Virus record (IMG/VR): IMGVR_UViG_3300036781_000327 | Location: 1-44,492 of that record | Direction: 5' to 3' (one strand) | DNA: 44,492 nucleotides | Source: a virus | In this document: positions 13,069 to 44,492 of the stretch, one piece after another | Layout of the letters: every line of letters begins with the position of its first letter | Position numbering within the stretch: position 1 is the stretch's first letter | Program-made: the position numbers and the translations under genes | Notes under the pieces: model-generated | Seen by the model: the letters and a program-made list of their open reading frames with translations, nothing else | Database searches by the model: none | Told to the model about the DNA's origin: nothing

Positions 13069-13462
13069 CTGATGTCATTCCATTATCAGGAAGGTAGATT
13101 TTGACTCCTGTCTGATGGTTTACACGTTGTTCCAACTTATCTGTTTGTCGTAATCTATTTTTACCAAGCCAAACTAATTGTGTATTGTCTCCTTTTAGAG
13201 CTTTTTCAAATTGCTTTCCTAATAAAGCAGCATCGCCTTTCTCCTTCTTTTCTAACGAGTAATTTGAAAAATCTATCTCTTTTTCTCTTTTACATCCATC
13301 ATAAAGAGTTTGAGGATGAACTCCTAAGACAGCTGCTATTTGTTGTCCTGAGCATCCAGCCATTAGATACTTATCCACTAATGCCCAATCGATCTCAAAG
13401 GTAGGTCTCCCAGCTTGTGGTCTCCTCTTGAAAGGGTGATCTTTACGGATTCCTTTCGGCAT
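13058..13462 (-). CDS. terS: Terminase small subunit
   Basis: This 134-residue protein begins MPKGIRKDHPFKRRPQAGRP, a basic arm common in phage small terminases, followed by a helix-turn-helix (YLMAGCSGQQIAAVLGVHPQ, then TLYDGCKRE) and a helical C-terminus with ALKGDNTQLVWLGKNRL. It recognises the packaging start and loads the large subunit. TAATG overlap with the methyltransferase stop and an 11-base overlap with terL place it in the late operon. Confidence 0.85.
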   Translation of the reverse strand: MPKGIRKDHPFKRRPQAGRPTFEIDWALVDKYLMAGCSGQQIAAVLGVHPQTLYDGCKREKEIDFSNYSLEKKEKGDAALLGKQFEKALKGDNTQLVWLGKNRLRQTDKLEQRVNHQTGVKIYLPDNGMTSDVE

Positions 13463-14838
13463 TAGTCTTCTTCTCCGCCTTGTGATTCTTCGTCTTCAGG
13501 AATGTTAAAACTCACCTTGCCTATTTTTTTCGTAGCTTTTTTTGGATCGCCTTTTAGAAAGACAAGAATATTTTGGTGCTGCTTTCCAAGTTTTCTTCCT
13601 GCTTCAAATTGCCTACCTATTGTTAAAGCCAATGTCCCACAGGTATCTATGAGAATAGCTTCGTTGTAGTAATGCAGACCTGCATCCAGAAATGCTCTGA
13701 TCGTGTCTCCGACAAAGTGGTAATACATACCTTTTTTGTCTCTCACTTCACCTATGACAAAGCACGCAAACGAATTGTCGTTTAATTTTTCACACGCCTT
13801 TTTTATAATTTCTTTGTATGCCTTGATAAATTCATTGTATTCCATATTTGAAATATCACCCTGAATATCTGAGTAAACCTCTAAATCAGCATAGGGTGGG
13901 CATGAGAAGACAAAGTCGAATTTTCCGTTTACTAGAGTGTCTATATTTATACTATTTCCACATATCCAATTTGTCGTTGAATATTTGTTTTCATTATTCT
14001 TATTAATTATTTCGAAATTATTGTAATTGCTTTCGATTTGTTCTTTTCTAATATCAATTCCTGTATAATCAAATCCTGAAATAGATGCAACAGTTCCTCG
14101 TGTGCATCCTCCACTAAATGGGTCTAAAATTTTTCCATTTGGTACACAAAACCACTTATAGAATATTTCAGCTAAAAACGGATCAAATAGCGATGTTCCA
14201 GAAAAATCTTTCTTGGTCATTCCTAATTTTTTCATCAAATCAGAAGCTGTCTCCCTTCCGATAAGAGATTCACCTCTTCCTTCTCCGTCAATAATACCTA
14301 TTTCTTTTGACCAGTAATTTCTTCGTTCAATCCAATCGCTTCTACGTCTATCAAATATTGTGAAAGGTGTGTAACCAAATTTTCTCGATACATTTCCCTT
14401 TTTGCTTTCATCTCCTTCGCCTCCCTCACCATCATCATCTTCGTCAACTACTCCAAAATCTTCTAGTGTAAATCCCCATTCACATAACTCGTCCATTTCG
14501 AAATTATTGGCTAAAATATCAAAATCCCACGTTCCTGTATTTCTGTTAGATCGTATCAGGTATTCATCAGCTTGTTTTTTTGTAAGTTGTTTCGATGGTA
14601 CACGCACTTCTATTTCTTTGTCAGACCATCCAAGTTCGATCATAATATGAACTCTTTGATGTCCTGCTAAAATAGTGTTGTCCTTGTTAATTGCTACTAG
14701 TTCAACGTAATCAAATTCCTCAAAAGATTTCAGAAGATCATCGTGATTTTTCTTAGATAGGATTCTCGGGTTGGTCGGGTGATCTTTCAAATCCGATAGC
14801 TTTCGTTTCTCTGTTGTCCACACTATTTTCGATTTCAT
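13462..14838 (-). CDS. ParB-domain DNA methyltransferase
   Basis: This 458-residue protein fuses a ParB-like N-terminal domain (NPRILSKKNHDDLLKSFEEF, AGHQRV at about 58-63) to a SAM-dependent DNA methyltransferase. Motif X/I is SLFDPFLAEIF, then ILDPFSGGCTRG at about 237-248; the catalytic motif IV is FSCPPY at about 311-316. Motif I precedes motif IV, the alpha or gamma order. An acidic linker (DEDDDGEGGEGDE) joins the halves. SCPPY suggests amino-methylation of adenine or cytosine. It lies directly upstream of terminase, so it could protect DNA or mark packaging substrate; the target site is unknown. Confidence 0.85.
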   Translation of the reverse strand: MKSKIVWTTEKRKLSDLKDHPTNPRILSKKNHDDLLKSFEEFDYVELVAINKDNTILAGHQRVHIMIELGWSDKEIEVRVPSKQLTKKQADEYLIRSNRNTGTWDFDILANNFEMDELCEWGFTLEDFGVVDEDDDGEGGEGDESKKGNVSRKFGYTPFTIFDRRRSDWIERRNYWSKEIGIIDGEGRGESLIGRETASDLMKKLGMTKKDFSGTSLFDPFLAEIFYKWFCVPNGKILDPFSGGCTRGTVASISGFDYTGIDIRKEQIESNYNNFEIINKNNENKYSTTNWICGNSINIDTLVNGKFDFVFSCPPYADLEVYSDIQGDISNMEYNEFIKAYKEIIKKACEKLNDNSFACFVIGEVRDKKGMYYHFVGDTIRAFLDAGLHYYNEAILIDTCGTLALTIGRQFEAGRKLGKQHQNILVFLKGDPKKATKKIGKVSFNIPEDEESQGGEED

Positions 14839-15640: not shown

Positions 15641-15755
15641 ATCAACTCCTATTTTATGTCTAGGATATCGAAATAAATCGAAAAAAGGAAGGGTTAACGC
15701 TCGATTTAAATGATGGGATATGTTAATATTAAGGTATAAAGCGAAGGAGCTTAAC
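15641..15755. promoter_or_regulatory. Divergent regulatory region
   Basis: This 115-bp region lies between the minus-strand late operon and plus-strand accessory genes. It holds copy A of the five-member promoter-operator family at 15701-15738. The minus-strand late promoter should be here too. CATAAAAT before the nuclease ribosome site is a possible -10, but no good -35 is visible. Confidence 0.55.
15701..15738 (+). promoter_or_regulatory. Repeated promoter-operator, copy A
   Basis: TCGATT (15701-15706), 17 bases, TAATAT (15724-15729), then AAGGTATA. It matches copies at 15992, 31771, 32223 and 34066 in both hexamers and in the spacer (TAAATGATGnGATATGT). A partial palindrome covers the -10. 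Confidence 0.75.
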
Positions 15756-15953
15756 ATGAACACTAGCCCGTACATTAAACATAACACAGTACACTACGTC
15801 GATAACAACGATGATACAATTATGGACGAACAATATTACACCAATCGCAAAGAAGCGGTTGAGGATGCAAAATGGGTACTATCAAAAAATCCACAATACA
15901 AAGAAGCAAGAATATTCAAGAATGAAATTTGGCAAGCAACAGTTACAAGATAA
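15756..15953 (+). CDS. Hypothetical small protein
   Basis: This 65-residue protein starts MNTSPYIKHNTVHYVDNNDD and is not recognised. The start is ATG 15756 with GAAGGAG six bases before it. Promoter copy A lies just upstream and a strong terminator follows, so it is a single-gene unit. The pattern of aromatic and acidic residues resembles other tiny early proteins of this genome at 16062 and 32300. Confidence 0.65.
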   Translation: MNTSPYIKHNTVHYVDNNDDTIMDEQYYTNRKEAVEDAKWVLSKNPQYKEARIFKNEIWQATVTR

Positions 15954-15960
15954 TAGTTAG

Positions 15961-15988
15961 AAAAAAAAGCGCGAAAGCGCTTTTTTTT
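15961..15988. terminator. Bidirectional intrinsic terminator
   Basis: A8, then GCGC-GAAA-GCGC, then T8 form a perfect 12-bp hairpin with a GAAA tetraloop. It has T-runs on both strands and lies eight bases after the 15756 gene. Confidence 0.88.
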
Positions 15989-15991
15989 CGT

Positions 15992-16030
15992 TGGTCATAA
16001 ATGATGTGATATGTTAACATTAAGATAAGA
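15992..16030 (+). promoter_or_regulatory. Repeated promoter-operator, copy B
   Basis: TGGTCA, 17 bases (TAAATGATGTGATATGT core), TAACAT at 16015-16020, then TAAGATAAG. It is the most diverged of the five copies in the -10 and drives the 16062 gene. Confidence 0.68.
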
Positions 16031-16061
16031 AAGCAAACAAGGCGAACCAAGGAGCTAAAAG

Positions 16062-16313
16062 ATGACAGCATCAGTAAGATACGAAGTAGGCGGTAAGTTA
16101 CCTAACATAGTAGATTATGACGGAGCATTTACCATTACGTCACTGAATAAACTTTCAGAAAAAGAATGCGAGAATACCTATGCGAGATGGACATTTACTG
16201 CTAAAGATCTTTCTAAAAAATGTAAGGTATTAGATTTTGACACTATGAAATACGTAAATGAACACCCTACAGTAGTAGGATGGATTGATGAACAAGGCAG
16301 ATGGTTTTCATAA
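16062..16313 (+). CDS. Hypothetical small protein
   Basis: This 83-residue protein is not recognised. It starts MTASVRYEVGGKLPNIVDYD and ends VVGWIDEQGRWFS. AAGGAG sits seven bases before the ATG, and promoter copy B lies upstream. Many short beta segments suggest a small soluble domain. A perfect hairpin without a T-run follows. Confidence 0.65.
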   Translation: MTASVRYEVGGKLPNIVDYDGAFTITSLNKLSEKECENTYARWTFTAKDLSKKCKVLDFDTMKYVNEHPTVVGWIDEQGRWFS

Positions 16314-16316
16314 AAC

Positions 16317-16338
16317 TGGGGGGATCAGGTTCCCCCCA
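16317..16338 (+). other. Intergenic hairpin
   Basis: The arms TGGGGGGA and TCCCCCCA form a perfect 8-bp stem between the 16062 and 16374 genes. The plus strand continues with A residues, so it is not a classic terminator for these genes. It belongs with the other tetraloop or short-loop hairpins between early genes. Confidence 0.65.
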
Positions 16339-16373
16339 AAAAAGTCGAACATTATAATTGATACGAGGTAAGT

Positions 16374-17150
16374 ATGTCACAAGTTTTAACAGAAGTCAAT
16401 CTGAATAGGATAGTACCTAGCGTTTTTGCTACAAGCAAAGCGGACAAGATGAGCGATCGATACGGATTTATCCCGACTATTGATGTAGTAAGAGGACTTG
16501 AGAAATCAGGATTTATGCCAGTTATGGCTAAACAATCGAATACAAGAATTGAGGGTAAAAAGAATTTTACCAAGCACATGATGAGATTTCGTCACGTAGA
16601 CGCAAAGAATCTAGATGGTCATTTTCCCGAGATCGTCTTAGTCAACTCACACGATGGTTCCTCTAGCTATCAAATTAGAGCAGGTATTTATCGTCTTGTC
16701 TGTTCAAATGGTTTGATCGTGGGAGATGATATATGCTGTCACAAGATTAGACATAGTGGAGACGCAGTTCAGAAAGTGGTTCAATCTGCGAATGAGATCA
16801 TAGACGTAGTGCCTGAGATCATAAATAAGTCAGCGGATTGGAAGGGGATTGAGCTAAAATATGACCAAAAGAAGGTTTTTGCAGAGGTAGCTGCTACTTT
16901 AAAGTGGGATGAGGATGAAATCAAGATACCACCCACTAATCTATTAATCCCTAAGCGTATGGCTGACACGAAAAATGATCTGTGGACTACATTTAACGTC
17001 ATTCAAGAAAATTTGATCAAAGGTAAGGTCAAATATAGGACTGAAACGGGAAGAAATAGCACTAGAGCTGTAAATTCAGTTACAGAAAATGTTAGGTTAA
17101 ATACTGCTCTCTGGTCGTTGACAGAGAAAATGGCCGAGTTGGCAAAGTAG
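16374..17150 (+). CDS. DUF932 phage/plasmid-like protein
   Basis: This 258-residue protein fits DUF932, found in phages and plasmids, often near recombination or DNA-metabolism genes. It has DRYGFIPTIDVVRGLEKSGF, HMMRFRH, EIVLVNSHDGSSSYQIRAGI, YRLVCSNGLIVGDD and a helical C-terminus. The biochemical role is unknown. The gene lies between two perfect hairpins and has a weak ribosome site (GAGGTAAGT). Confidence 0.8.
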   Translation: MSQVLTEVNLNRIVPSVFATSKADKMSDRYGFIPTIDVVRGLEKSGFMPVMAKQSNTRIEGKKNFTKHMMRFRHVDAKNLDGHFPEIVLVNSHDGSSSYQIRAGIYRLVCSNGLIVGDDICCHKIRHSGDAVQKVVQSANEIIDVVPEIINKSADWKGIELKYDQKKVFAEVAATLKWDEDEIKIPPTNLLIPKRMADTKNDLWTTFNVIQENLIKGKVKYRTETGRNSTRAVNSVTENVRLNTALWSLTEKMAELAK

Positions 17151-18091: not shown

Positions 18092-18787
18092 ATGCAAAAG
18101 AAAAAAATTAAAGTATTGAATTTAGAAGACAGAAAATTGATTCAAGAATTACTTCATAAAAGGCTTAAGCATAAAGATATATGTGAAAAACTAGATATAC
18201 ATCAAACAACTTTATATAGAGAAGTCAAACGATGCAAAGATAGCTATGATGCTGAGGAAGCTCAAAGATCTTCGTTTAAAAGTAGGCAATGTATAGATTT
18301 TGAAATTATTGGGAAAAAATTCGGAAAGTTGACTGTTGAATCGTTTGCCAATATTTACAAGCATAGAAGTTGGTGGAATTGCTTATGTGATTGCGGTAAA
18401 AAATGTGTTATAAATCGTAAATGGTTGATGGAGTATTGCAGTCCTAAGAGACCTTTAAGTTGTGGATGTATACCTAAACAAGCTAAAGGAAGGGGAGGTG
18501 CTGTCCCTTTTGAAGAATCTTCTATGAGGAAGTATGAGGATCTTCTAAAATTTAGGAAAATTTCAGGGACTTGTTGGGAGTGGCAGGGTTATAAGCAAAA
18601 TGGAAAGTGTCCAATGACCTCTTGGCGAAATAAGACAATGTCTGTTAGAAAGTGTATGTACTTAATATTTAATGGAACAACATATGAGCCTAATCCAGTT
18701 CATACGACCTGCGGAAATTTATCGTGTTTTAATCCTGATCATATCACTATAGAACCTCCACTCAAGAGACATCTTTACGAGGAATAA
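18092..18787 (+). CDS. HNH endonuclease with N-terminal helix-turn-helix
   Basis: This 231-residue protein looks like a free-standing homing-type endonuclease. The first 45 residues form a transposase-like helix-turn-helix (HKDICEKLDIHQTTLYREVK). Next is a zinc-binding segment (WWNCLCDCGKKC, later PLSCGC) seen in AP2/HNH phage proteins. The C-terminus is HNH_3-like: CWEWQGYKQNGKCPM, then VHTTCGNLSCFNPDHI. The usual first histidine (AHR) is replaced by SVR, so activity is uncertain. TAATG couples it to the next gene. It is probably a mobile intruder in this cluster. Confidence 0.75.
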   Translation: MQKKKIKVLNLEDRKLIQELLHKRLKHKDICEKLDIHQTTLYREVKRCKDSYDAEEAQRSSFKSRQCIDFEIIGKKFGKLTVESFANIYKHRSWWNCLCDCGKKCVINRKWLMEYCSPKRPLSCGCIPKQAKGRGGAVPFEESSMRKYEDLLKFRKISGTCWEWQGYKQNGKCPMTSWRNKTMSVRKCMYLIFNGTTYEPNPVHTTCGNLSCFNPDHITIEPPLKRHLYEE

Positions 18788-21902: not shown

Positions 21903-22580
21903 TTAGGTTGGTGGCTTATCTGTAAGGCATTCAATAAATGCTCCTATCTTTCCAGCATGATCTAATTTTACTACTGGATCGATCCAAATCCTAAATCCTG
22001 CTTGCCTTGCTCTTCTGCAAAAAACATAATCTTCACCCCAAAATTCACCTTCCCATAATTCAACAGCAAATAAATGATATCCTGAAGTGTGCTTGAGTGA
22101 TGGATCTTTTGGCTCGTAATAAAGTTCGGGAAAGAAATCTATCATATTTTGGATGACTTCCCGTTTAACAAGCATAAATCCAGCAGGGATATATTCCATC
22201 TCTAATAGACATTTTTCTGATGGCTTCATTCGTTTTTCTGGCCCTTCGTATACTCCTCTAAAAAGGAAGTAATTTTCTGGGCCTCTTGCAGGATAAAGAG
22301 CAGCTACGAAATCCTCATTATGATCAATCAATCTCTTAATATCTAAGGGATTCCAGCCAATATCTGAATCAATCATCATTATGTGAGTGGCGTCGGTTTC
22401 AAGGAATGCTTTGAGTAAATCGTTCCTTTCTCTTACTAGAAGGGAACCTGATGTCGTCACTCTCACAATCGTTTCAATTGCGTTTGCAGCTAGATAAAGG
22501 CGTGTGTCGCAAAGTGAACATGCATATTGAACGTTAACTTTACCATCAAAAGCAGGTGTAGCGATAAATATTTTCGTCAT
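21903..22580 (-). CDS. Glycosyltransferase, GT-A fold
   Basis: This 225-residue enzyme has the features of a nucleotide-sugar transferase: IFIATPAFDGKV at the N-terminus, LLVRERNDLLKAFLETDATH, the metal-binding DSD at residues 71-73 (MMIDSDIGW), IPAGFMLVKREV, and GEDYVFCRRARQAGFRIWID near the end. Phage genes of this type can modify host surface sugars, DNA bases or virion proteins. Here the ATG overlaps the stop of the 636-residue fibre gene (ATGA), which suggests that the fibre or its receptor is the target; that is inference. Confidence 0.78.
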   Translation of the reverse strand: MTKIFIATPAFDGKVNVQYACSLCDTRLYLAANAIETIVRVTTSGSLLVRERNDLLKAFLETDATHIMMIDSDIGWNPLDIKRLIDHNEDFVAALYPARGPENYFLFRGVYEGPEKRMKPSEKCLLEMEYIPAGFMLVKREVIQNMIDFFPELYYEPKDPSLKHTSGYHLFAVELWEGEFWGEDYVFCRRARQAGFRIWIDPVVKLDHAGKIGAFIECLTDKPPT

Positions 22581-24487
22581 AGAGCCTTTATATATAGTGA
22601 TCGCTTAAAGTTAGTAGTCAATTCTACCGTAATGGCAAGATTATTGTCAGTAGGAACCTGAAATTGAGTTGCTGGGTTATAGGTGTACGTAATCGGGGAA
22701 GTCTGAATATTCGTTCCCCCATTTCCTCCAATGACAAATTGAGTGCTAGTTGCGACTGCTGCATTTATATTTGTATTTGTTGCCATAGTTTGGGATACCC
22801 AGGTTGTGGCATCTGTAGAAGTTAAAATTATTCCTGAAGTGCTTAAAGCACCTGCTGCTAAATAAATCCCTGAAGTATAGGTTAAGGCATTCAAACTAAA
22901 CGTTGTTGTGCTAGATCGTGTTGTCCAAGTGATTGCGTCAGTTGAGCTTGCAAGCACCCCTCCTGCACCTGAATATACGTAAACCGATCCATAAGTCAGT
23001 GCACTAATTTGAGAAGTTGTGCCACTAGTTTGCGTTGTCCATGTAAGTGCATTCGTTGAAGTTGCTAAAACGCCTCCTGCACCAGATGCTACAAATAATG
23101 AATTACCGAATATAATTGATGCAAAAGCAGAAGTAGTTGTCGATCCACCATTTGAAGTCCACGTTGTCCCATCGGTAGATGTTAATATTACATCTACTCC
23201 TGCTGCATAAAATCCAGAATTATAAATCACAGAATTTAAATTTTGAGTTGTTCCGCTAGTCCTGGAAGTCCATGTTATTCCGTCCGTTGAACTTTGAATA
23301 GACCCGTTTTGACCTACTGAAACATAGGCACTGTTTCCATAAGCTATACTAAAGATTGTAGATGAAGTTGCACTTGTTCTTGCTGTCCAAGTTGTTCCGT
23401 CTGCTGATGTTCCTACACCTCCATTGACAGTGCCATAAACATATAGGGAATTTCCAAAACCTACAGCATTTATAGCACTTACTGTATTGCTTATCCTTGT
23501 CGTCCAGGTGATTGCGTCAGTTGAACTAGATATTGATCCTCCTGATCCTACCCATACATACGCATTGCCATAAATTACACTATTAATTGCTGATGAACTT
23601 CCGCTTGTTCTGGAAGTCCAAGTGATCGCGTCAGTTGAAGTTGCTAGAGTTCCACCTGCACCAGCATAAACATAAACCCCCCCTGAACTATATGTTAATG
23701 CATTAATAGCAGAGGCGGTTCCTGAAGTCCTTGAAGTCCATGTTATTCCGTCGGTCGATGTGGCTATAACACCTCCTGCTGCCCCATACACATACGATGT
23801 TCCATAAATTACACTTTGTATAAGAGATGTAGTTCCTGGAGATCGTGCAGTCCATGTTAAAGCATCAGTACTAGTATTCAAAACTCCTGTTGAAACGGCT
23901 AAATATAATCCATTTCCAAAATTAAACGGTTTTGATCCCCCTCCTGCAATACTTGGAGTTCTTGTATTCCAGGTTATAGAATCGGTTGAAGTAACAATAG
24001 TCCCATTTGTTCCAACTGCTACATAAGTTGAATTTGCATATATTATAGCATTTAACGCCGAAATTGTTGGTGAAACTCTGGAAGTCCAAGTGATCGCGTC
24101 GGTTGAACTTAGAATTGTTCCAGCTGCCCCTACTGCACAATAAAGAACTCCATATGTTACACCGTTTAATGATTGAGCGGTTCCGCTTGTTCTGGAAGTC
24201 CATGTGATCGCATCAGTTGAAGTTCCTATTGCTCCACCATTGGCAACATTTACATAGAGTGAATTTCCAAAAGTTAGGGCGTTTGTTGCGTTCTGTGCTG
24301 TATGATTCGTCCACTGCGAACCTCCTGGATTGATTAAACCTAATCTCTGATAGAGAGCTGGATATGTCGATTGCAGATAAACTGAACCATCGCATTTTAG
24401 ATATTTGCTATTTAGGTATCCAACGCCTTGACCGTTTGCAAAATATCCTAGAGCTCCAATAGGGATACTGTCGTCATTATATGCCAT
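22577..24487 (-). CDS. Tail fibre with collar domain and about 13 beta-propeller-like repeats
   Basis: This 636-residue protein starts with a phage collar-like segment (DSIPIGALGYFANGQGVGYL, then YLKCDGSVYLQ and YPALYQRLG). From about residue 89 to 595 it holds some 13 repeats of about 40 residues. Each has S-T-D-x-[IT]-T-W-T-[ST]-R followed by a short turn, xINAxxYG and xVxVGxxGxI. The STDxxTW core resembles Asp-box (BNR) or YCF48-type blades, which form propellers that bind glycans. This is a likely receptor-binding protein. Confidence 0.78.
   Translation of the reverse strand: MAYNDDSIPIGALGYFANGQGVGYLNSKYLKCDGSVYLQSTYPALYQRLGLINPGGSQWTNHTAQNATNALTFGNSLYVNVANGGAIGTSTDAITWTSRTSGTAQSLNGVTYGVLYCAVGAAGTILSSTDAITWTSRVSPTISALNAIIYANSTYVAVGTNGTIVTSTDSITWNTRTPSIAGGGSKPFNFGNGLYLAVSTGVLNTSTDALTWTARSPGTTSLIQSVIYGTSYVYGAAGGVIATSTDGITWTSRTSGTASAINALTYSSGGVYVYAGAGGTLATSTDAITWTSRTSGSSSAINSVIYGNAYVWVGSGGSISSSTDAITWTTRISNTVSAINAVGFGNSLYVYGTVNGGVGTSADGTTWTARTSATSSTIFSIAYGNSAYVSVGQNGSIQSSTDGITWTSRTSGTTQNLNSVIYNSGFYAAGVDVILTSTDGTTWTSNGGSTTTSAFASIIFGNSLFVASGAGGVLATSTNALTWTTQTSGTTSQISALTYGSVYVYSGAGGVLASSTDAITWTTRSSTTTFSLNALTYTSGIYLAAGALSTSGIILTSTDATTWVSQTMATNTNINAAVATSTQFVIGGNGGTNIQTSPITYTYNPATQFQVPTDNNLAITVELTTNFKRSLYIKAL
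22703..24223 (-). repeat. Tandem coding repeats, about 13 x 40 residues
   Basis: The repeats are visible as recurring STDAITWTSR-type peptides spaced 36-44 residues apart. DNA such as GTGATCGCGTCAGTTGAA recurs nearly unchanged in several units, indicating recent duplication or conversion. Confidence 0.85.
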
Positions 24488-27378: not shown

Positions 27379-28370
27379 ATTTTATAAGAAATGATGAATT
27401 TTTTGAGTAACTCTTTAAAATTTTCATCCTTATACTCTAGTGGTTGTGTTGCTTTTGGTCTCTCAAGCATAACACAGTAATCGTCTATAGAGAAACCGTA
27501 ATTTTCATTGAATTTGAATGTCGATTTGCATTTTTCTGCATATTCTTTGTTCTGCTGTATCAGAATTTTCTCTTGGCTTTTTTCTATCTCTTCTTTGATT
27601 TTATTGGGTTTCCACCCTTCCTTTACAGATTTTATCAATGCGCCAGTAGGATTTACAAGCTCCTTCTTATTTGCATACTGATCGAATGCTTCGCAAGCGT
27701 GAGTTAGGTGTGCGAGTTCATAAGAAATCAGCTGTGCAATGACCTTTTCCTCTAATTCGTATTTTGCGAGTAAGTCTCGTTTCTCTTCTTCATCAGATAT
27801 GATGGGAACAACAACAACAGGAGGGGAAGGAGGATTTTCCTGTTGTTGTAAGAATGCATAATTAGAAGATGTATTAATTATGCCGCCATTTTTGGCGGGT
27901 TCTATGGAACCGCCATTTTTGGCGGGTTCTATGGAACCGCCATTTTTGGCGGTTCCGCAAACATTTTTTGAATCCCCTGGGTCGCCACCGGAGAATATTT
28001 CTCTTTCCCATTCCTCGTCTTCAGGTGGCGAATTTCCTACTTTTTTCTCTCGACTAAACGCAGGGGTCACAAAGATTTTGCGCTTTTTTATCCATTGAAA
28101 AGCTCCGTCTTCTTGCTTGACCGGATAATTTTGAGTTTCCCTAACAATGAATCCACCATCCTCTAATTCTTTGTTCCAACGTTGAATATTTCGTATGGAT
28201 ACTTTTTTCATTTCGGATAGTTGTTCATCAGTGGCCCAAATATAGCCACATCTTACCGCCAGGCCCGTAATTTGCCCGAAGTATATCTTTGCTGCATCTG
28301 ATATGTTTTCGTCGGCCTGGACGTGATATGGTATGATAGCGTTGAAAGGTAAGTCTAATTGTTTCGACAT
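27375..28370 (-). CDS. Replication initiator (lambda O-like)
   Basis: This 331-residue protein has an N-terminal winged helix-turn-helix (AAKIYFGQITGLAVRCGYIW, then ATDEQLSEMKKVSIRNIQRW and LEDGGFIVRE), as in RepO-type initiators. A low-complexity middle contains AKNGGSIEP twice plus a partial AKNGG copy, encoded by 27-bp repeats that look like iterons. The C-terminal half is helical (ISYELAHLTHACEAFDQYAN, NPTGALIKSVKEGWKPNKI) and may recruit the host helicase. No phage helicase or loader is seen. AGGAGG precedes the ATG by seven bases. Confidence 0.75.
   Translation of the reverse strand: MSKQLDLPFNAIIPYHVQADENISDAAKIYFGQITGLAVRCGYIWATDEQLSEMKKVSIRNIQRWNKELEDGGFIVRETQNYPVKQEDGAFQWIKKRKIFVTPAFSREKKVGNSPPEDEEWEREIFSGGDPGDSKNVCGTAKNGGSIEPAKNGGSIEPAKNGGIINTSSNYAFLQQQENPPSPPVVVVPIISDEEEKRDLLAKYELEEKVIAQLISYELAHLTHACEAFDQYANKKELVNPTGALIKSVKEGWKPNKIKEEIEKSQEKILIQQNKEYAEKCKSTFKFNENYGFSIDDYCVMLERPKATQPLEYKDENFKELLKKFIISYKI
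27883..27952. repeat. Iteron-like repeats inside the initiator gene (candidate origin)
   Basis: There are two full 27-bp copies and a third partial copy. Each contains the palindromes CCGCCATTTTTGGCGG and GGTTC-TATG-GAACC. Origins embedded in the O gene are known from lambdoid phages. The arms encode repeated AKNGGSIEP, so the repeat is constrained at both DNA and protein level. Confidence 0.65.
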
Positions 28371-29567: not shown

Positions 29568-30049
29568 TTTTTTCCTCCAAACATGTCGAACTGGGTTGGT
29601 GCAGGAAATTCCTTTTTCAGGAGATCCCTAATTAATTCATTTACCTCGATAATCCTTCCCTCAATCACCGATTTATTAAGTGCCTGGCGCTTAATGTATT
29701 CCAAATGATCCTTTTCAAGCACCAAATAAATTGCTGAAGGATTTTTTAAAGGAGGCTTTTTTTTCTGTATTTTTCCGCATTTTTCCTCATTTTTTCCTTT
29801 TTCAACGGGAACCCTTCCTTTTGATCTTTTTCCCCAATGGCAATTTTCTTTACAAAATTCGATTCCCCTATCCAATTTTATCAATGCATTACAATCTTCC
29901 GGACACTCTCCCATGTCCTGTAGGAAATGTAGGTATAGGGCCCACGGTTCGCAAACTGAGTTTCCTGGATATGGGCTTTGTTTGCACAGCCTCTTCATTC
30001 TGGCCCAAATGTTGTATGTTTTTGTTTTGTACTTGTTGTGCGTTGTCAT
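29564..30049 (-). CDS. Zinc-binding / ribbon-helix-helix protein
   Basis: The first 75 residues of this 161-residue protein (KTKTYNIWARMKRLCKQSPY, VCEPWALYLHFLQDMGECPE, ENCHWGKRS) match the phage domain usually written as KTPTYxxWxxMKxRC, DMGxCP and NCRW, seen in HNH-associated proteins. The last 55 residues (SAIYLVLEKDHLEYIKRQAL, EVNELIRDLLKKEF) resemble a ribbon-helix-helix. Its first 161 bases overlap the upstream gene in another frame, and there is no clear ribosome site. Confidence 0.62.
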   Translation of the reverse strand: MTTHNKYKTKTYNIWARMKRLCKQSPYPGNSVCEPWALYLHFLQDMGECPEDCNALIKLDRGIEFCKENCHWGKRSKGRVPVEKGKNEEKCGKIQKKKPPLKNPSAIYLVLEKDHLEYIKRQALNKSVIEGRIIEVNELIRDLLKKEFPAPTQFDMFGGKK

Positions 30050-30509
30050 TTTCTATTTCCATGAATTTGAATTTAAGTTGATTTTTATTAGTTTCATATT
30101 TCCTAAGTATTTCAGATCTAATCAGTTGAGATATATTTTTATTTGTATTTTCAGCGATCTGATGGATCTCCAGGTAGACATCTATCGGCAAAGAAACTGA
30201 GACTGAGACAAAATCATGCTGATTAGCAGCCTCTGGAAGGGGCGATTGCTTAACGTTTCGTGGGTTATCAGGATGATTCTCACGATGAGCAGCACTATGA
30301 CATTTTTGGCATAGCCAGAGGACGTGCAGAGGCTTGCCATAATCTCGATGATGAGCCTGTGTCTTACAGTGTATTCCACATGCTTGACATTCCGAAGCTC
30401 TTACTAATGCTCCGCGATTTATGGCTGCATTTGTAATTGCTCGCACATATTTTCTACGCTTAAAAGCGATAATGTCTTGCTGCTTAATGGTATATTTATG
30501 TTCGCTCAT
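29889..30509 (-). CDS. HNH-like zinc domain fused to ribbon-helix-helix
   Basis: Residues about 40-80 of this 206-residue protein (CQACGIHCKTQAHHRDYGKP, then WLCQKCHSAAHRE) form the four-Cys plus His domain common in phage HNH-like proteins. Residues about 100-145 (VSVSLPIDVYLEIHQIAENT, SQLIRSEILRKYE) are a ribbon-helix-helix DNA-binding region. The C-terminal 54 residues run through the next gene in another frame and look non-conserved, so an earlier stop may have been lost. Confidence 0.65.
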   Translation of the reverse strand: MSEHKYTIKQQDIIAFKRRKYVRAITNAAINRGALVRASECQACGIHCKTQAHHRDYGKPLHVLWLCQKCHSAAHRENHPDNPRNVKQSPLPEAANQHDFVSVSVSLPIDVYLEIHQIAENTNKNISQLIRSEILRKYETNKNQLKFKFMEIENDNAQQVQNKNIQHLGQNEEAVQTKPISRKLSLRTVGPIPTFPTGHGRVSGRL

Positions 30510-30849: not shown

Positions 30850-30877
30850 ATTATACGGTATATGATATTTTTATCAA
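30850..30877 (-). promoter_or_regulatory. Early leftward promoter
   Basis: On the minus strand: TTGATA (30877-30872), 16 bases, TATAAT (30855-30850). It is a near-consensus promoter for the Cro-like gene and the early minus block. The inverted repeat TGATA-TTTT-TATCA at 30863-30876 overlaps the -35 and is a candidate operator. Confidence 0.75.
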
Positions 30878-30887
30878 ACATTTATGT

Positions 30888-31194: not shown

Positions 31195-31752
31195 ATGAAA
31201 GACACTATACCAGATGGGTACACACGGGTTACCGAAGTGCTATCACCTTTCGCGAAACTAGATCATATTGATCCCATTGTGCTAGAGAATGCAGCCGATC
31301 GGGGGAGACGAGTGCACAAATACTGCGAGTCTTATGCTTTAGGACTATTTGTAGCTGATGTCGATAATGATTGCAAACATTATTTTAATGCTTTTAAGGA
31401 GTGGTTTGATTATTCGGTTGTTGGAGTGGTACATACAGAGATGCGTATAAATTCTGACAAGTTGAAATTAACTGGTGCTTTCGATATGTCCGTTCTTCTG
31501 AAAGGTGATGATGGTTTGACATTGATTGATATCAAGACTCCTCAGAATGCATCATCTACATGGCAATTGCAAACCGCTGCTTATCAGATGTTAGCGCGAG
31601 AAGAGGCGCAAATAGATTTTAAAAGGAGAATCGCTCTTAAGCTTCCAAGAGATCCTAGAAGAGCGCAAATAGTTGAATACACTGATCATTTAAAAGACCA
31701 GGAGCTTTATCTTAAAGCTCTAGAGCTCTATAGGTTCTTCAAGTTTTCATAA
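31195..31752 (+). CDS. RecB-like PD-(D/E)XK exonuclease
   Basis: This 185-residue protein has the order of residues of Cas4/RecB-type nucleases: GRRVHKYCES with H41, E82 after a strand, GAFD at 94-97, IDIK at 111-114, then WQLQTAAYQ (Q124-Y130). Such enzymes resect double-strand ends for an annealing protein, here probably the RecT-like product at 34686. A repeated leader (GGAAGTT, CTACTAAGGAGAAA) and the ribosome site precede the ATG. Confidence 0.8.
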   Translation: MKDTIPDGYTRVTEVLSPFAKLDHIDPIVLENAADRGRRVHKYCESYALGLFVADVDNDCKHYFNAFKEWFDYSVVGVVHTEMRINSDKLKLTGAFDMSVLLKGDDGLTLIDIKTPQNASSTWQLQTAAYQMLAREEAQIDFKRRIALKLPRDPRRAQIVEYTDHLKDQELYLKALELYRFFKFS

Positions 31753-31770: not shown

Positions 31771-31808
31771 TTGACTTAAATGATACGATACCTTAATATT
31801 AAGGTATC
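31771..31808 (+). promoter_or_regulatory. Repeated promoter-operator, copy C (perfect palindrome)
   Basis: TTGACT (31771-31776), 17 bases, TAATAT (31794-31799). The 20-bp sequence ATACCTTAATATTAAGGTAT at 31788-31807 is an exact palindrome centred on the -10, so a dimeric repressor could block it. It is the best member of the five-copy family. Confidence 0.82.
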
Positions 31809-31836: not shown

Positions 31837-32007
31837 ATGACACGAAAGCAATTTGAGAAGATCGTTAAGAGATTAGAGGTACTTTCTTTTAACGCTTATG
31901 AGAAGTCTCTAGACAACTACGAAAAAAATAAAGTTAATAAAGCCTACAATAATTGGGATAAGGTATACCTTTTCGCTGAAAAGCACGGTGTTAAGGTGTA
32001 CTCATGA
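31837..32007 (+). CDS. Small hypothetical protein
   Basis: This 56-residue protein (MTRKQFEKIVKRLEVLSFNA at the start) is basic and helical and ends GVKVYS. It starts 29 bases after palindromic promoter copy C, with TAGGAG upstream. The ATGA overlap joins it to the next gene. Confidence 0.6.
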   Translation: MTRKQFEKIVKRLEVLSFNAYEKSLDNYEKNKVNKAYNNWDKVYLFAEKHGVKVYS

Positions 32008-32192
32008 TAAACAGTTATTATAGTCAATGGAGCTCGCAAGAGCTCCTTGAAAATTATGAAATTGATGCAGATTTGGATCATGATAAAGTTGAAGCGGAAT
32101 TGGAGCAAGATGAGTGGGACGGAGTTAGCTGTCCGCATTGCTCAGGTGGGTGCTCAAGCTGTATCGATATAGGATGGTCAGATTTTATATAG
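32004..32192 (+). CDS. Small zinc-knuckle protein
   Basis: This 62-residue acidic protein has CPHCSGGCSSC near its end, a compact Cys/His cluster that could hold one zinc. Its early coding region forms a GGAGCTC-GCAA-GAGCTCC hairpin about 25 bases after the ATG. Function unknown. Confidence 0.58.
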   Translation: MINSYYSQWSSQELLENYEIDADLDHDKVEAELEQDEWDGVSCPHCSGGCSSCIDIGWSDFI

Positions 32193-32222
32193 GAATAAAA
32201 GAAAGAAAGAGTGGATAAACTC

Positions 32223-32260
32223 TCGATTTAAATGATGCGATGTGTTAATATTAAGGTATA
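32223..32260 (+). promoter_or_regulatory. Repeated promoter-operator, copy D
   Basis: TCGATT (32223-32228), 17 bases, TAATAT (32246-32251), then TAAGGTATAAG. It is nearly identical to copy A over about 38 bases. It drives the 32300 gene. Confidence 0.75.
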
Positions 32261-32299
32261 AGAAACACGGTAAGAGGCAGAGCCTCAAGGAGAATGAAA

Positions 32300-32581
32300 A
32301 TGACAAGAACAAGCGCGAGACAAGTTTACACACAATTAGAGAACACATCAGTTACCTTTAAAATCACTAAGAACGATGTAGAATACCTCGTTTTAGAGAC
32401 TCCAACGTTAATCACAATCCTAGACCAATATGGCGTGTGGATGGATAGCGAGTTTCAAGCACACGCAGTTGATAAATCATTTAACCAACACATTGTCTAC
32501 TGGCCTGTTAAGAATCAGTCAGAAAACTTTGAAGAGGCGTGCGAAAAAGATTTCTTCACAATACAACCTAAAAGATTCTAG
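32300..32581 (+). CDS. Small hypothetical protein
   Basis: This 93-residue protein starts MTRTSARQVYTQLENTSVTF and is probably mixed alpha/beta. The ATG at 32294 is one base from AAGGAG and the ATG at 32300 is seven away, so the second is chosen. It resembles the 15756 and 16062 products in size, promoter and ribosome site. Confidence 0.6.
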   Translation: MTRTSARQVYTQLENTSVTFKITKNDVEYLVLETPTLITILDQYGVWMDSEFQAHAVDKSFNQHIVYWPVKNQSENFEEACEKDFFTIQPKRF

Positions 32582-32594
32582 TTTAAATTCTCGT

Positions 32595-32618
32595 GAGCTC
32601 CTTAGAAATAAGGGGCTC
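32595..32618 (+). other. Intergenic hairpin with GAAA loop
   Basis: The arms GAGCTCCTTA and TAAGGGGCTC pair over 10 bp with one G-T pair, with a GAAA tetraloop. It lies between the 32300 and 32657 genes and has no T-run. Confidence 0.68.
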
Positions 32619-32630
32619 CTATAGGAACAA

Positions 32631-32651
32631 ACGTGCAACGCACAAGGAGTA
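32631..32651 (+). repeat. Repeated ribosome-site leader, copy 1
   Basis: Twenty of 21 bases match the leader at 33030-33050. The GTGC and GCAC arms flank a three-base loop just before AAGGAG, so the ribosome site sits at the foot of a small hairpin. Confidence 0.7.
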
Positions 32652-32656
32652 GTAAG

Positions 32657-32983
32657 ATGAAAGGTTCAGAAAAACAAATTGAGTGGGCAGAAAAAATAAT
32701 CGCAGAGTGGATTTTATCTCTCAATGATCGTTTAGAGAGAATTATGTTAAGACCTATGAGTGAGATGCCTCCTAAATATTTTGAAAAAGCGAAATATTTT
32801 CATGGAAAAATGTTAGAAAAAATTTATGTAATGGACGATGCCAGACATATAATTGAAGTATGGCAAAGAACTGGAAAAGATCGCAGCGCTGTAGTAGGGT
32901 ACGACACTGCTTTACAAAGATGGGCAGAGAAATTTTGGGAAACTCCAGAATTTGCTGATTGGAAAAAAACTCTGAATGTTTAG
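32657..32983 (+). CDS. Conserved phage protein (GSEKQIxWAE family)
   Basis: This 108-residue protein opens MKGSEKQIEWAEKIIAEWIL, a motif found in many small phage proteins of unknown role. The rest is helical, with a hydrophobic WAEKFWETPEFADWK end. AAGGAG is seven bases before the ATG at 32657, so the longer frame from 32633 is rejected. The leader ACGTGCAACGCACAAGGAG is repeated before the 33056 gene. Confidence 0.62.
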   Translation: MKGSEKQIEWAEKIIAEWILSLNDRLERIMLRPMSEMPPKYFEKAKYFHGKMLEKIYVMDDARHIIEVWQRTGKDRSAVVGYDTALQRWAEKFWETPEFADWKKTLNV

Positions 32984-32992
32984 CTTTTTTTT

Positions 32993-33016
32993 GAGTCCCT
33001 TAGCTATAAGGGACTC
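32993..33016 (+). other. Intergenic hairpin with GCTA loop
   Basis: The arms GAGTCCCTTA and TAAGGGACTC form a perfect 10-bp stem. It is between the 32657 and 33056 genes. A T-run precedes the stem and none follows it on the plus strand. Confidence 0.7.
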
Positions 33017-33029
33017 CGATAAAACTTAA

Positions 33030-33050
33030 ACGTGCAATGCACAAGGAGTA
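33030..33050 (+). repeat. Repeated ribosome-site leader, copy 2
   Basis: This differs from copy 1 by a single base (GTGCAATGCAC). It leads directly into the 33056 gene. Confidence 0.7.
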
Positions 33051-33055
33051 AGAAA

Positions 33056-33268
33056 ATGAAATTTATGAGCAAACAAGATGTACGTCGTTATATTGAGGAT
33101 CAGCCAATAACAAGCCCCGAGTTTTACAAAGAGGATTATGTAGATATTGCTACAGATAATTTTATGAAAATGCTTAACTCTAAAGGGTTTAGTTTTGGTG
33201 ACGATTTAATCGATTTCCACGTAAGTGAGGATGAATTTTGGGAATGCTTTAAAGACGCTGAAGTCTAG
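33056..33268 (+). CDS. Small acidic hypothetical protein
   Basis: This 70-residue protein (MKFMSKQDVRRYIEDQPITS at the start) is acidic and helical and ends in DEFWECFKDAEV. The ATG at 33056 follows AAGGAG; the longer frame from 33032 would begin inside the leader repeat and is rejected. No family is recognised. Confidence 0.58.
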   Translation: MKFMSKQDVRRYIEDQPITSPEFYKEDYVDIATDNFMKMLNSKGFSFGDDLIDFHVSEDEFWECFKDAEV

Positions 33269-33277
33269 CTTCTCCTC

Positions 33278-33299
33278 AGTGCTCTTGAAAAAGAGCACT
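33278..33299 (+). other. Intergenic hairpin with GAAA loop
   Basis: The arms AGTGCTCTT and AAGAGCACT form a perfect 9-bp stem with a GAAA tetraloop, between the 33056 and 33333 genes, with no T-run. Confidence 0.7.
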
Positions 33300-33332
33300 T
33301 CGATGGAAGTTGAACTACTAAGGAGAAATATT

Positions 33333-33563
33333 ATGAAGCCACAGATACAATTTAAGGGACAAAGTTACGATTTCGATAAATTTGAGGATCAAGTAGATGT
33401 GTTCGACTTGACGGATGCTGAATTTGATGAGTTTGAAGACTTAATACCTCATCGCTCAGTTGACTACTCTAAACCAGAAAAAATATGGACTGGCGATGAA
33501 TACATATGTAGTCACGCAACTTACATAGATGATGAAAGATATACACAAGGGAAAGCATCATGA
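33333..33563 (+). CDS. Small acidic hypothetical protein
   Basis: This 76-residue protein starts MKPQIQFKGQSYDFDKFEDQ and is strongly acidic (DLTDAEFDEFEDL). Its leader (GGAAGTT, ACTACTAAGGAGAAA) repeats that of the exonuclease gene. Acidic size and composition resemble small phage DNA-mimic inhibitors, but this is speculative. ATGA links it to the next gene. Confidence 0.58.
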   Translation: MKPQIQFKGQSYDFDKFEDQVDVFDLTDAEFDEFEDLIPHRSVDYSKPEKIWTGDEYICSHATYIDDERYTQGKAS

Positions 33564-33775
33564 GTTCAATTCAATATAATGGAAAAAAATTAATGCCAAT
33601 CGAGAATGCTTATCTTTATCATGCAAAAGATGATCCTTTGCATGCAGTTTACACAACTATTGCTATAGATGGTGGTGGCAAGCAATATGTAGTCGAATGG
33701 GAGATTGTCAATCTTGATGCTGATGATGAAGCAGATTGTTGCGATTGGTCTCAATATACAGTCAGGGAGTGGTGA
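33560..33775 (+). CDS. Small hypothetical protein
   Basis: This 71-residue protein is beta-rich (HAVYTTIAIDGGGKQYVVEW) with an acidic end (DADDEADCCDW). It overlaps the previous stop as ATGA. No family is recognised. Confidence 0.58.
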   Translation: MSSIQYNGKKLMPIENAYLYHAKDDPLHAVYTTIAIDGGGKQYVVEWEIVNLDADDEADCCDWSQYTVREW

Positions 33776-33776
33776 G

Positions 33777-34055
33777 ATGAAAAATTACTGGATCTCGTGG
33801 TATGGGCCTAAGGCCTATGCTTTCACCCTTTATTCACCTTGGTGGATTAGTGGTACAGCATGGAGTAAGGATGACGATGAAATCGATATATTTTGTGCTG
33901 CGGTAAAAGCCAATTCTGAGGAAGATGCTAAGGAAGTTATCCGTAAAAGTCACGATAAGTATGAAGAATTGGACTTCAGATTTTGCAGCGAAAGGCCTGA
34001 CGATTGGAGCCCATTTTGCGAGCGTTTCGAAAGGGCAGATTGGATGAAATTTTGA
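33777..34055 (+). CDS. Small Trp-rich hypothetical protein
   Basis: This 92-residue protein starts MKNYWISWYGPKAYAFTLYS and contains about eight Trp. It has AVKANSEEDAKEVIRKSH, a pattern seen in small phage accessory proteins with an alpha/beta fold. The ATG follows the previous stop by one base, with a GGGAG ribosome site. A longer in-frame start at 33705 overlaps the previous gene and is not used. Confidence 0.58.
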   Translation: MKNYWISWYGPKAYAFTLYSPWWISGTAWSKDDDEIDIFCAAVKANSEEDAKEVIRKSHDKYEELDFRFCSERPDDWSPFCERFERADWMKF

Positions 34056-34065
34056 TGAAAAATCA

Positions 34066-34100
34066 TTGATTTAAATGAAGCGTTTTGTTAATATTAATAC
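34066..34100 (+). promoter_or_regulatory. Repeated promoter-operator, copy E
   Basis: TTGATT (34066-34071), 17 bases, TAATAT (34089-34094). The spacer starts TAAATGAAGCG as in other copies, but the sequence after the -10 (TAATACAT) has lost the right half of the palindrome. It drives the recombination genes at 34128 and 34686. Confidence 0.72.
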
Positions 34101-34127
34101 ATAAACCAATCTCGCTTAGGGTGTTAA

Positions 34128-34673
34128 ATGACTGAATTAGTTCCACAAATATTTTTTGATATAAATAGTATTAAGCATAATATAGAGCGCGAGTTTAATC
34201 TTGCGCTCTTGCAGGGGTACGCTGAGACTTTGCAGGTCACTTGCGAAGATACAGCAAAAAATGCTCTATCTACCGCTTTGCAAGCCAGAAAGCTTGGAAT
34301 AGCTCTTGATAAGAGTAAATCTGAGATCACTAAGCCACATTTTGATTATCAGAAAGCAATCAATCAACTCGTGAAGGATTTCAAAGAAAAGTTGGTTGAT
34401 ATCGAGAATTCACTGCATCGAAAAATAGACGGCTGGAGGAAGTCGGTAAAAGAAAATCCTTTTATCAGGGTGGATGAGATAAGAGTTGAAGATGGTCAGC
34501 TTTACACACAGAAATTATGGAATTATGAGATCGAAGATGATTCATTAGTCCCCGACAAATTCAAGTCGATAGATGATAAAAAAATCACTAAAGCAATCGA
34601 CAACGGAATAATTAATATTCCAGGAATCAGAGTCTACCAACAAGAAAAAACAGTCTTAAGAGTTAAAAACTAA
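34128..34673 (+). CDS. Recombination-associated coiled-coil protein
   Basis: This 181-residue protein is helical for about 115 residues (ITKPHFDYQKAINQLVKDFK, VDIENSLHRKIDGWRKS). Its end reads LWNYEIEDDSLVPDKFKSID, then IPGIRVYQQEKTVLRV, a segment that recurs in phage proteins encoded beside recT-type genes. It probably supports the annealase; the exact activity is unknown. It lies 12 bases before the RecT-like gene, under promoter copy E. Confidence 0.62.
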   Translation: MTELVPQIFFDINSIKHNIEREFNLALLQGYAETLQVTCEDTAKNALSTALQARKLGIALDKSKSEITKPHFDYQKAINQLVKDFKEKLVDIENSLHRKIDGWRKSVKENPFIRVDEIRVEDGQLYTQKLWNYEIEDDSLVPDKFKSIDDKKITKAIDNGIINIPGIRVYQQEKTVLRVKN

Positions 34674-34685
34674 AGGAGTTAAATT

Positions 34686-35510
34686 ATGCTTAAATTTTCT
34701 ATGCCGTCACCACAAGAGCTTGAACACCTTACTAATTTCTGCAAAGTTATGGCCATGAGTCCATTTTATCAAAAGTTGGGGCCTGGAGGAGTGATGGCCA
34801 TCTATTTGACCGCTAAAGAATATGACCTTCCATTCATGGCGTGTTTAAACGGAGGTTTACACACTTTTGATGGTAAGGTGACTTTTTCTGCACTTATGAT
34901 TGACGCTTTAATTCTGAAAGCGGGTCACAAGACAGAAGTCCTGAAGCTAGATAATGAAAGCTGTTGCATTAGATTCATTCGCGGAGATCGCAGGAACGAT
35001 CCAAATTATCAGCCTTTTGTTTACGAGTACACGATCGAAAAAGCTCGGAAAGCAGGGTACCTTACTAAGAAAAATTGGCAAACTAGCTGCGACGATATGC
35101 TTTATTCAAGATGTATGACTGGTGGAGCTCGCAAACATACTCCTGAGGTAATGGTCGGAGTTTTAGTAACTGGTGAGCTTGTTGGAGATGATAGAGATGG
35201 AAATGTACCCCCTCTAATACCTACTCTAAGTCCCGAAAATTCACTGGTTCCACCTTCTTTACCTAAACCTATTCAAGAGACAGCACAAATAGAGCATCAA
35301 CCAATCATCGGTTACCACGAATTTTTCTTAGCTAATTTTGCTAATCTTGACGATCCTTTACACAAAAGGAAACTAGATTATGTAACAAAGACGTGTGAAA
35401 AATCAGGGATGGATCAGGTGAAAATCATAAACTATGCTGTGCAACATCCAAGTTATTTCGAAGAAAAGTTTAGGGCTTGGGAGAAAGAAAATTTTGAAGA
35501 TTGTGCTTGA
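34686..35510 (+). CDS. RecT-like single-strand annealing protein
   Basis: The first 170 residues of this 274-residue protein fit the RecT/Redbeta fold group: MAMSPFYQKLGPGGVMAIYL, AKEYDLPFMACLNGGLHTFD, KVTFSALMIDALI, then KKNWQTSCDDMLYSRCMTGG, ARKHTPEVMVGVLVTGE. A Pro-rich linker (PPLIPTLSPENSLVPPSLPK) leads to a helical C-terminal domain. With the RecB-like exonuclease it would make a Red-like recombination pair. AAAGGAG lies before the ATG. Confidence 0.7.
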   Translation: MLKFSMPSPQELEHLTNFCKVMAMSPFYQKLGPGGVMAIYLTAKEYDLPFMACLNGGLHTFDGKVTFSALMIDALILKAGHKTEVLKLDNESCCIRFIRGDRRNDPNYQPFVYEYTIEKARKAGYLTKKNWQTSCDDMLYSRCMTGGARKHTPEVMVGVLVTGELVGDDRDGNVPPLIPTLSPENSLVPPSLPKPIQETAQIEHQPIIGYHEFFLANFANLDDPLHKRKLDYVTKTCEKSGMDQVKIINYAVQHPSYFEEKFRAWEKENFEDCA

Positions 35511-44126: not shown

Positions 44127-44492
44127 CTATTTTTTTCCGATTTTTCTTCTTGCCACCTCTTCTAGATCAATTCGCATGTCAATTAGTGCATTTGCTCGAT
44201 ATAGGTCGTCAATATTCCATGTCGTCTCTAACTCTATAAGGGTTGCCATTCCTTCAATAATTAAACGCCATAAGGCATATTCCTGTCGCAATTCTTCGTG
44301 AAGGTTCTTTTCGTAGTTTGTGCCGGAATTGTCATTTGTTCTGTAAATAGGTTGCCAATACCGATCATTGAAAAAAAATTTGCGAAATTCACCTCTATCA
44401 CAAAGAAGACTACCTCGTATAATCCTGCTATATCCCCTGCAAACTCTATGTCAATGGTAGGAGCTGTTAATTCTTGACCATTTTTTCTGACT
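44127..44492 (-). CDS. Tail assembly chaperone, C-terminal part with -1 frame extension
   Basis: This continues the gene from base 1 (44366 equals base 1). The zero frame stops at 44261, giving the 161-residue G form. After a -1 slip, the frame stays open as NDRYWQPIYRTNDNSG, LHEELRQEYALWRLIIEG, IDDLYRANALIDMRIDLEE and ends at TAG 44129-44127, giving a 206-residue GT form. The extension is helical and charged, as GT-type tails that contact the tape measure are. Confidence 0.72.
44366..44492. repeat. Terminal direct repeat (circular-contig overlap), right copy
   Basis: This is an exact copy of bases 1-127. Joining 44365 to base 1 restores an uninterrupted tail assembly chaperone gene on the minus strand, which supports circular closure. 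Confidence 0.95.

Follow-up and report, generated by a model that had tools for sequence, protein, structure and literature searches.

The DNA analysed here, called the window, is the whole 44,492-base stretch of one IMG/VR record (Table 1). It is DNA of an uncultured tailed phage and includes baseplate genes. Bases 1-127 and 44366-44492 are identical; therefore, the record probably is a complete circular assembly. No integrase was found among the 30 of 66 candidate window proteins that were scanned against PHROGs. The same scan reported a transposase-like N-terminus at 18092-18787, and a search of the window for tRNAs returned none. At 13462-14838 a DNA methyltransferase is fused to a ParB-like N-terminus, at 22577-24487 the DNA of a long protein, perhaps a fibre, repeats with a period of 114-120 bp, and at 27883-27963 a 27-bp unit bearing the hairpin CCGCCATTTTTGGCGG stands three times in tandem.

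Five copies of a promoter-like element are distributed over two distant places. Copies A and B open a block of genes (15756-17150) which has the DUF932 gene at its end. Copies C, D and E serve a second block (31837-35510) which includes a RecT-like gene. Beyond the exonuclease gene upstream of copy C lies a leftward operon with a gene for a small Cro-like protein. Within the second block a leader, AAACGTGCAAyGCACAAGGAGTA, is repeated ahead of two small early genes (32629-32662 and 33028-33061, 88% alike).

Table 1. Features of the window and counterparts of copy C in related phages.
Feature	Coordinates	Strand	Description
Window	IMG/VR record IMGVR_UViG_3300036781_000327, 1-44,492	one strand, 5' to 3'	
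Copy A (P2a)	15701..15738	+	TCGATT-17-TAATAT, with TGn; upstream of 15756-15953
Hairpin between units A and B	15961..15988	+	AAAAAAAAGCGCGAAAGCGCTTTTTTTT; T-flanked, terminator-like, by eye
Copy B (P2b)	15992..16029	+	TGGTCA-17-TAACAT, with TGn; upstream of 16062-16313 and DUF932 gene
DUF932 protein	16374..17150	+	downstream of copies A and B; synteny anchor
HNH nuclease	29889..30509	-	C-terminal stretch weakly CopG repressor-like (E 0.0045); second candidate regulator
Cro-like HTH protein, 78 aa	30591..30827	-	candidate regulator
cro promoter, leftward	30850..30878	-	TTTGAT-17-TATAAT by eye; scan gives TTGATA-16-TATAAT
PD-(D/E)XK exonuclease	31195..31752	+	directly upstream of copy C; synteny anchor
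Copy C (P1a)	31771..31808	+	TTGACT-17-TAATAT, without TGn; predicted promoter of 31837-32007 and 32004-32192
Palindrome over copy C -10	31787-31808		GATACCTTAATATTAAGGTATC; 22 bp, perfect
Copy D (P1b)	32223..32260	+	TCGATT-17-TAATAT; upstream of 32294-32581
Copy E (P1c)	34066..34103	+	TTGATT-17-TAATAT; upstream of 34128-34673 and RecT-like gene 34686-35510
P1 counterpart of copy C in G001	L036:2944		
P1 counterpart of copy C in G002	L039:8947	-	
P1 counterpart of copy C in G021	L135:9857		
P1 counterpart of copy C in G024	L131:266		

The set of five plus-strand copies had been proposed in the initial annotation, and it stood up to counting. A core of 23 bases with at most three mismatches matched five times in the window, and not once in 100 dinucleotide shuffles. 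A matrix built from the five copies scored the lowest copy at 45.0 and the next-best place in the window at 9.7. Details of the description needed correction. The TTGAnT-like -35 is present in two copies (TTGACT, TTGATT), but the other three have TCGATT (twice) or TGGTCA. TAATAT is found in four copies, yet copy B has TAACAT, and TAAGGTAT follows the -10 in three of the five copies but not in the other two. When the transcription start was set 7 nt after the -10, a plus-strand start codon was seen by eye 20-36 nt downstream of each of the five starts. Genes do follow all five copies as proposed, although the fifth, with 181 codons, is not small. A generic promoter scan of the window listed copy C as the only one of the five. 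The hairpin between units A and B was missing from the terminator scan, which requires T after the stem.

No DNA match to the window was found in the phage collection. Relatives were drawn from IMG/VR via terminase, exonuclease and DUF932. Thirteen of the relatives were scanned jointly as complete records, and the genes of G001-G004 were mapped. With a score above 28 as the threshold for a strong element, nine of the 13 records contained one (G001, G002, G004, G021, G024, G025, G026, G028 and G029); none was present in G003, a short fragment, or in G022, G023 and G027. Matrix matches in records used for training are partly so by construction; for the sites in G021, G026 and at L185, the matrices had been built without them. 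The matches recur at two places. Just downstream of the exonuclease gene (P1) the element occurs in four of the seven records with this gene (G001, G002, G021, G024), G022, G023 and G046 having no strong element there. Upstream of the DUF932 gene (P2) it occurs in seven of nine records (G001, G002, G024, G025, G026, G028, G029); a strong element was absent at this place in G023 and G027. Scores never exceeded 17 at the more distant loci, whether for DUF932 (L059-L130) or terminase (L005-L035), and a whole-record scan of G010, a record outside the 13 with a terminase at 50%, revealed no element. The element is thus a feature of one lineage, within which both of its places are kept. The initial annotation had called for a motif search in related phages and named lack of conservation in close relatives as a reason to drop the idea; the search turned up further copies, and both of the distant blocks it had described are served in relatives too.

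IMG/VR was also searched by pattern. Degenerate patterns of the window type retrieved 0 contigs. The consensus pattern retrieved four: G025, already known as a relative, and three more that were assessed by matrix score. With the window DUF932 protein as the sole query no IMG/VR relative was obtained, whereas the DUF932 alignment found some. A frame-like match, TTTTTAAAAAAAACAGTTTTTGTTAATATTTA, was seen shortly upstream of an ATG on a 186,855-bp IMG/VR contig (L181:642(-)), at a 29% GC locus that is not known to be a relative.

We infer that the elements are active as promoters, and from sequence and position it is highly probable that the five copies function as conserved early promoters of two distant blocks. 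They are also direct repeats in a single orientation, one of them bearing a long palindrome, and might be taken for repeats used in replication, packaging or recombination instead. However, in many phages the copies show promoter-like hexamers with constant spacing and lie shortly before the start codons of early units, which makes such roles very unlikely.

The terminase alignment was compared with 84,980 bacterial and archaeal genomes, and 25 relatives were obtained. Six terminase loci at 63-68% identity came from five MAGs, four of them Chlamydiota (labelled Parachlamydiales, Chlamydiae, Rhabdochlamydiaceae and Parachlamydiaceae) and one Bacteriovoracaceae. As the nearest cellular terminases are mostly located in Chlamydiota MAGs, the host is likely a chlamydia-like bacterium. 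In a Rhabdochlamydiaceae MAG, contig G046:C12 (L176-L180; 96,481 bp) keeps the order of the Cro-like, exonuclease, baseplate and capsid genes; a scan of G046 gave no strong element. The last 77 bases of G046:C12 appear to repeat the first (the first 60 were tested). Besides the phage backbone it contains about 50 kb of further DNA, and its portal and terminase are separated by 19 kb; it may be a larger phage or a phage-plasmid. The exonuclease alignment had no match in bacterial genomes. When DUF932, exonuclease and capsid were compared with named phages, all matches were below 60% identity and gave no clear host. Among literature titles none dealt with tailed phages of chlamydiae; we make no claim of absence from print.

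Next, we consider how much of the element a host polymerase would need. All sites were read with a 17-nt spacer. The -35 starts with TT in 14 of 18 sites and is weak in several (TGGTCA, TGTATA), and the hexamers stand at the 16-18 nt distance of sigma70/sigma66-type promoters. Averaged over the phages, the near-invariant letters are a T at -17, a T/TG run before the -10, TAATAT and the T that follows. An A-rich block comes after the -35, near -26, and T/TG occupies -17 to -14. The A+T fraction of the sites is 0.86 at -29..-23, 0.52 at -22..-18 and 0.76 at -17..-13; thus they are A/T-rich near -26 and -17, as sigma66 promoters are. A positive 'spacer A/T region' is known in chlamydial promoters. 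TGn constitutes an extended -10, so the TG part of the spacer is ordinary.

In C. pneumoniae promoters, A/T stretches occur around -17 and -26 (PMC3333780, consulted in part). For comparison we used 29 proven C. trachomatis promoters (PMC2743672, in part). In these, spacer positions 2-6 were A or T in 112 of 145 cases against a shuffle mean of 99.9 (p 0.005), and A alone was not enriched there (p 0.35). The phage element is A-rich at spacer positions 2-6, and so are six oppositely directed phage cro promoters. Since the A-rich block is also present in the cro promoters and coincides with the sigma66 A/T positions, the frame of the element is best read as serving the needs of the host polymerase. 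The claim that promoters do not need the conserved spacer was mostly wrong here, given the extended -10 and the sigma66 A/T block; a further explanation is needed only for the spacer centre. By itself, a conserved spacer is weak evidence of a bound protein.

Sigma66 promoters share with the phage copies a TTG/TTTAC-like -35, a spacer of about 17 nt, a TAnnnT -10 and A/T near -26 and -17 (PMC3333780, PMC2743672; both in part). They differ in that TGn is present in four of the 29 C. trachomatis promoters, but in most phage copies. Unlike in sigma66 promoters, the phage spacer block is A-rich, not merely A/T-rich, and the spacer centre is fixed and phage-specific. In its working, the set is closest to the T4 early promoters, which likewise are many and strong, with UP-like sequence, -35, TGn, -10 and a further consensus (PMC2988021, in part). 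Here, in contrast, each record has only 1-5 copies, the centre is phage-specific and the host is another.

With the frame read as the polymerase's part, what remains for a regulator is the spacer centre (-23 to -17). Among 11 elements of four phages, identity of the centre was 0.75 within a phage and 0.42 between phages (label shuffle, p 0.004). The TG block (0.78 within, 0.77 between) and the -10 (0.98 and 0.96) were equally alike both ways. Addition of a fifth pair gave p 0.004; this pair, G021 and L185, was taken as one phage by metagenome number, and no shared ends were found. For the relatives without the window, three of 105 pairings did equally well. These label shuffles treat the copies as exchangeable, and some are recent duplicates. 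Over the whole spacer, copies from different places in the same phage were 0.79 identical and copies from the same place in different phages 0.56, the best of 24 pairings.

Recent copying does occur. In G029 the two copies do not differ, and the 40 nt that follow them are 85% alike; copies A and D of the window are 95% alike over 38 nt and 62% upstream. The elements could be plain strong early promoters of the host polymerase without any regulator, the likeness stemming from recent cassette copying or gene conversion. The frame accounts for much of the conservation, an extra consensus beyond -35, TGn and -10 is present in T4 early promoters also (PMC2988021, in part), and co-divergence of Cro and element could not be demonstrated (see below). 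However, the resemblance does not extend past the edges of the element in G001, G002, G024 and most pairs of window copies, the flanks being 0.23-0.53 identical, and one copy in G002 that has no rightward -35 sits on the cro promoter. We regard plain promoters as a possible reading, at odds clearly short of even. The within-phage likeness of the centre fits a phage-specific trans-acting factor, or copying after which the flanks decayed. That a phage regulator acts on the elements is about an even bet.

What would such a regulator recognize? In the window the elements have a dyad over the -10, with 5.2 of eight outer pairs matching against 2.75 in shuffles, the window copies not being independent. 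In the relatives 2.77 of eight outer pairs matched (shuffles, 2.74), and none had a dyad beyond chance. A palindrome as the defining feature of the element was thus rejected for the lineage, which lacks the dyad symmetry of Cro/CI-type operators. The palindrome in copy C is perfect as initially annotated, but it is 22 bp long instead of 20 bp. It is the sole perfect palindrome of at least 16 bp in the window and is peculiar to this phage.

The first candidate is the Cro-like protein of the leftward operon. A lambda-repressor-type fold was predicted (pLDDT 79); the best PDB matches of the model include HipB, controller proteins, YdaS and 434 Cro, and because all Foldseek E-values were above 0.1 this supports the fold class only. 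Weak matches to HTH and phage repressor families were obtained for its relatives, and the Cro alignment had one match among PDB sequences (E 0.97). Five of six phages were then scanned for the element with matrices from the other phages and the -35 omitted (G023, which has a Cro-like protein, was left out); the cro promoters themselves had been chosen by eye. The region upstream of cro ranked first of 61,030 places in G002 (chance expectation 0.004) and first of 86,638 in G024 (0.003). In G021 it held the fifth-best place of the genome, on the cro strand, which is suggestive (0.03), and in G001 a weak copy (0.18). No element copy was found upstream of the window cro gene (0.59), in agreement with the initial annotation, which gave this promoter a different inverted repeat. 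By eye, the cro-side copy of G002 matches the G002 P1 copy in 22 of 24 letters but has no rightward -35, and it covers the -35 of the cro promoter. Such a copy would be expected from a repressor that controls its own gene. The early copies of G024 have a different spacer centre from the copy at cro. Across five phages, Cro identity and element identity were not correlated (rho 0.29, p 0.41; exonuclease control 0.26). The recognition helix of the window Cro-like protein carries D30 and C34 at positions that are R and W in four relatives; the bearing of this change on the regulator is suggestive only. The proposal of Cro as the regulator thus gained element copies over the cro promoters of G002 and G024, but nothing in the window and no demonstrable co-divergence. 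We consider it a tentative assignment, somewhat below even odds.

The second candidate is the HNH/CopG-like protein. It is encoded in the leftward operon of the Cro-like gene, is present in all seven aligned records, and its C-terminus resembles CopG repressors. Ribbon-helix-helix repressors bind short dyads. Yet the family match is weak, the nuclease part points to another function and none of the element copies is associated with the start of this gene. That this protein, not the Cro-like one, is the binder seems improbable. A host protein was considered as well. The chlamydial master regulator Euo would tie early phage genes to the chlamydial cycle by binding the spacer; it was tested because its consensus TTAAAAACAAATTTT (PMC4989314, in part) resembles the G002 spacer in 11-12 of 15 positions. 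The spacer centre, however, differs between phages, and matches to the consensus were no better than in dinucleotide shuffles in ten of ten phages (p 0.10-0.96; window 0.79). Euo was rejected as the binder, with hardly any probability left to it.

Taken together, we favour a two-layer element, in which a frame for the host polymerase encloses a phage-specific centre for a phage DNA-binding protein; we put the probability at about 0.5. Once the DNA is inside the cell, the housekeeping RNA polymerase of the host, probably with chlamydial sigma66, would read the five copies. The first layer, common to these phages, would comprise the -35, the A-rich block at about -28 to -24, T/TG at -17 to -14, and TAATAT followed by T-A. 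The second would be the spacer centre, in the window phage together with the dyad over the -10; this layer varies from phage to phage but is shared by the copies within one. It would be bound by a DNA-binding protein of the phage, for which the best candidate is the Cro-like protein encoded in the divergent leftward operon. Once bound, the protein would overlap the polymerase, and as infection proceeds both early blocks may be repressed together. What we infer here is that a regulator exists, which protein it is, and that it represses rather than activates.

The 434 and lambda Cro-operator pairs are similar insofar as a small lambda-repressor-like protein is encoded at divergent promoters and the window copies have a dyad; in contrast, the relatives here are without dyad and most sites are far from cro. 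If a repressor is involved, the set would be closest to the operators and stoperators of Cluster A mycobacteriophages (L5, Bxb1), which have one orientation and some of which are located within early promoters (PMC6550527, in part). From phage to phage the Cluster A motifs are similar, not identical. By comparison, all sites here are at promoters, they number five, not up to 30, the repressor is a candidate only, and the correlation of motif and repressor was not seen in our five phages.

Possibly, this lineage controls both early blocks by copies of a single promoter-operator, each phage's spacer centre is read by its own Cro-like protein within a common sigma66 frame, and the window phage has moved to a dyad operator with a changed recognition helix. 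We think this rather unlikely, but if true, related phages would use private operator codes. If the two-layer reading is true, the elements would be a promoter/operator set for tailed phages of obligately intracellular bacteria with few genetic tools, and they would provide a natural series of diverged promoters which separates the spacer needs of the polymerase from the reading by a regulator.
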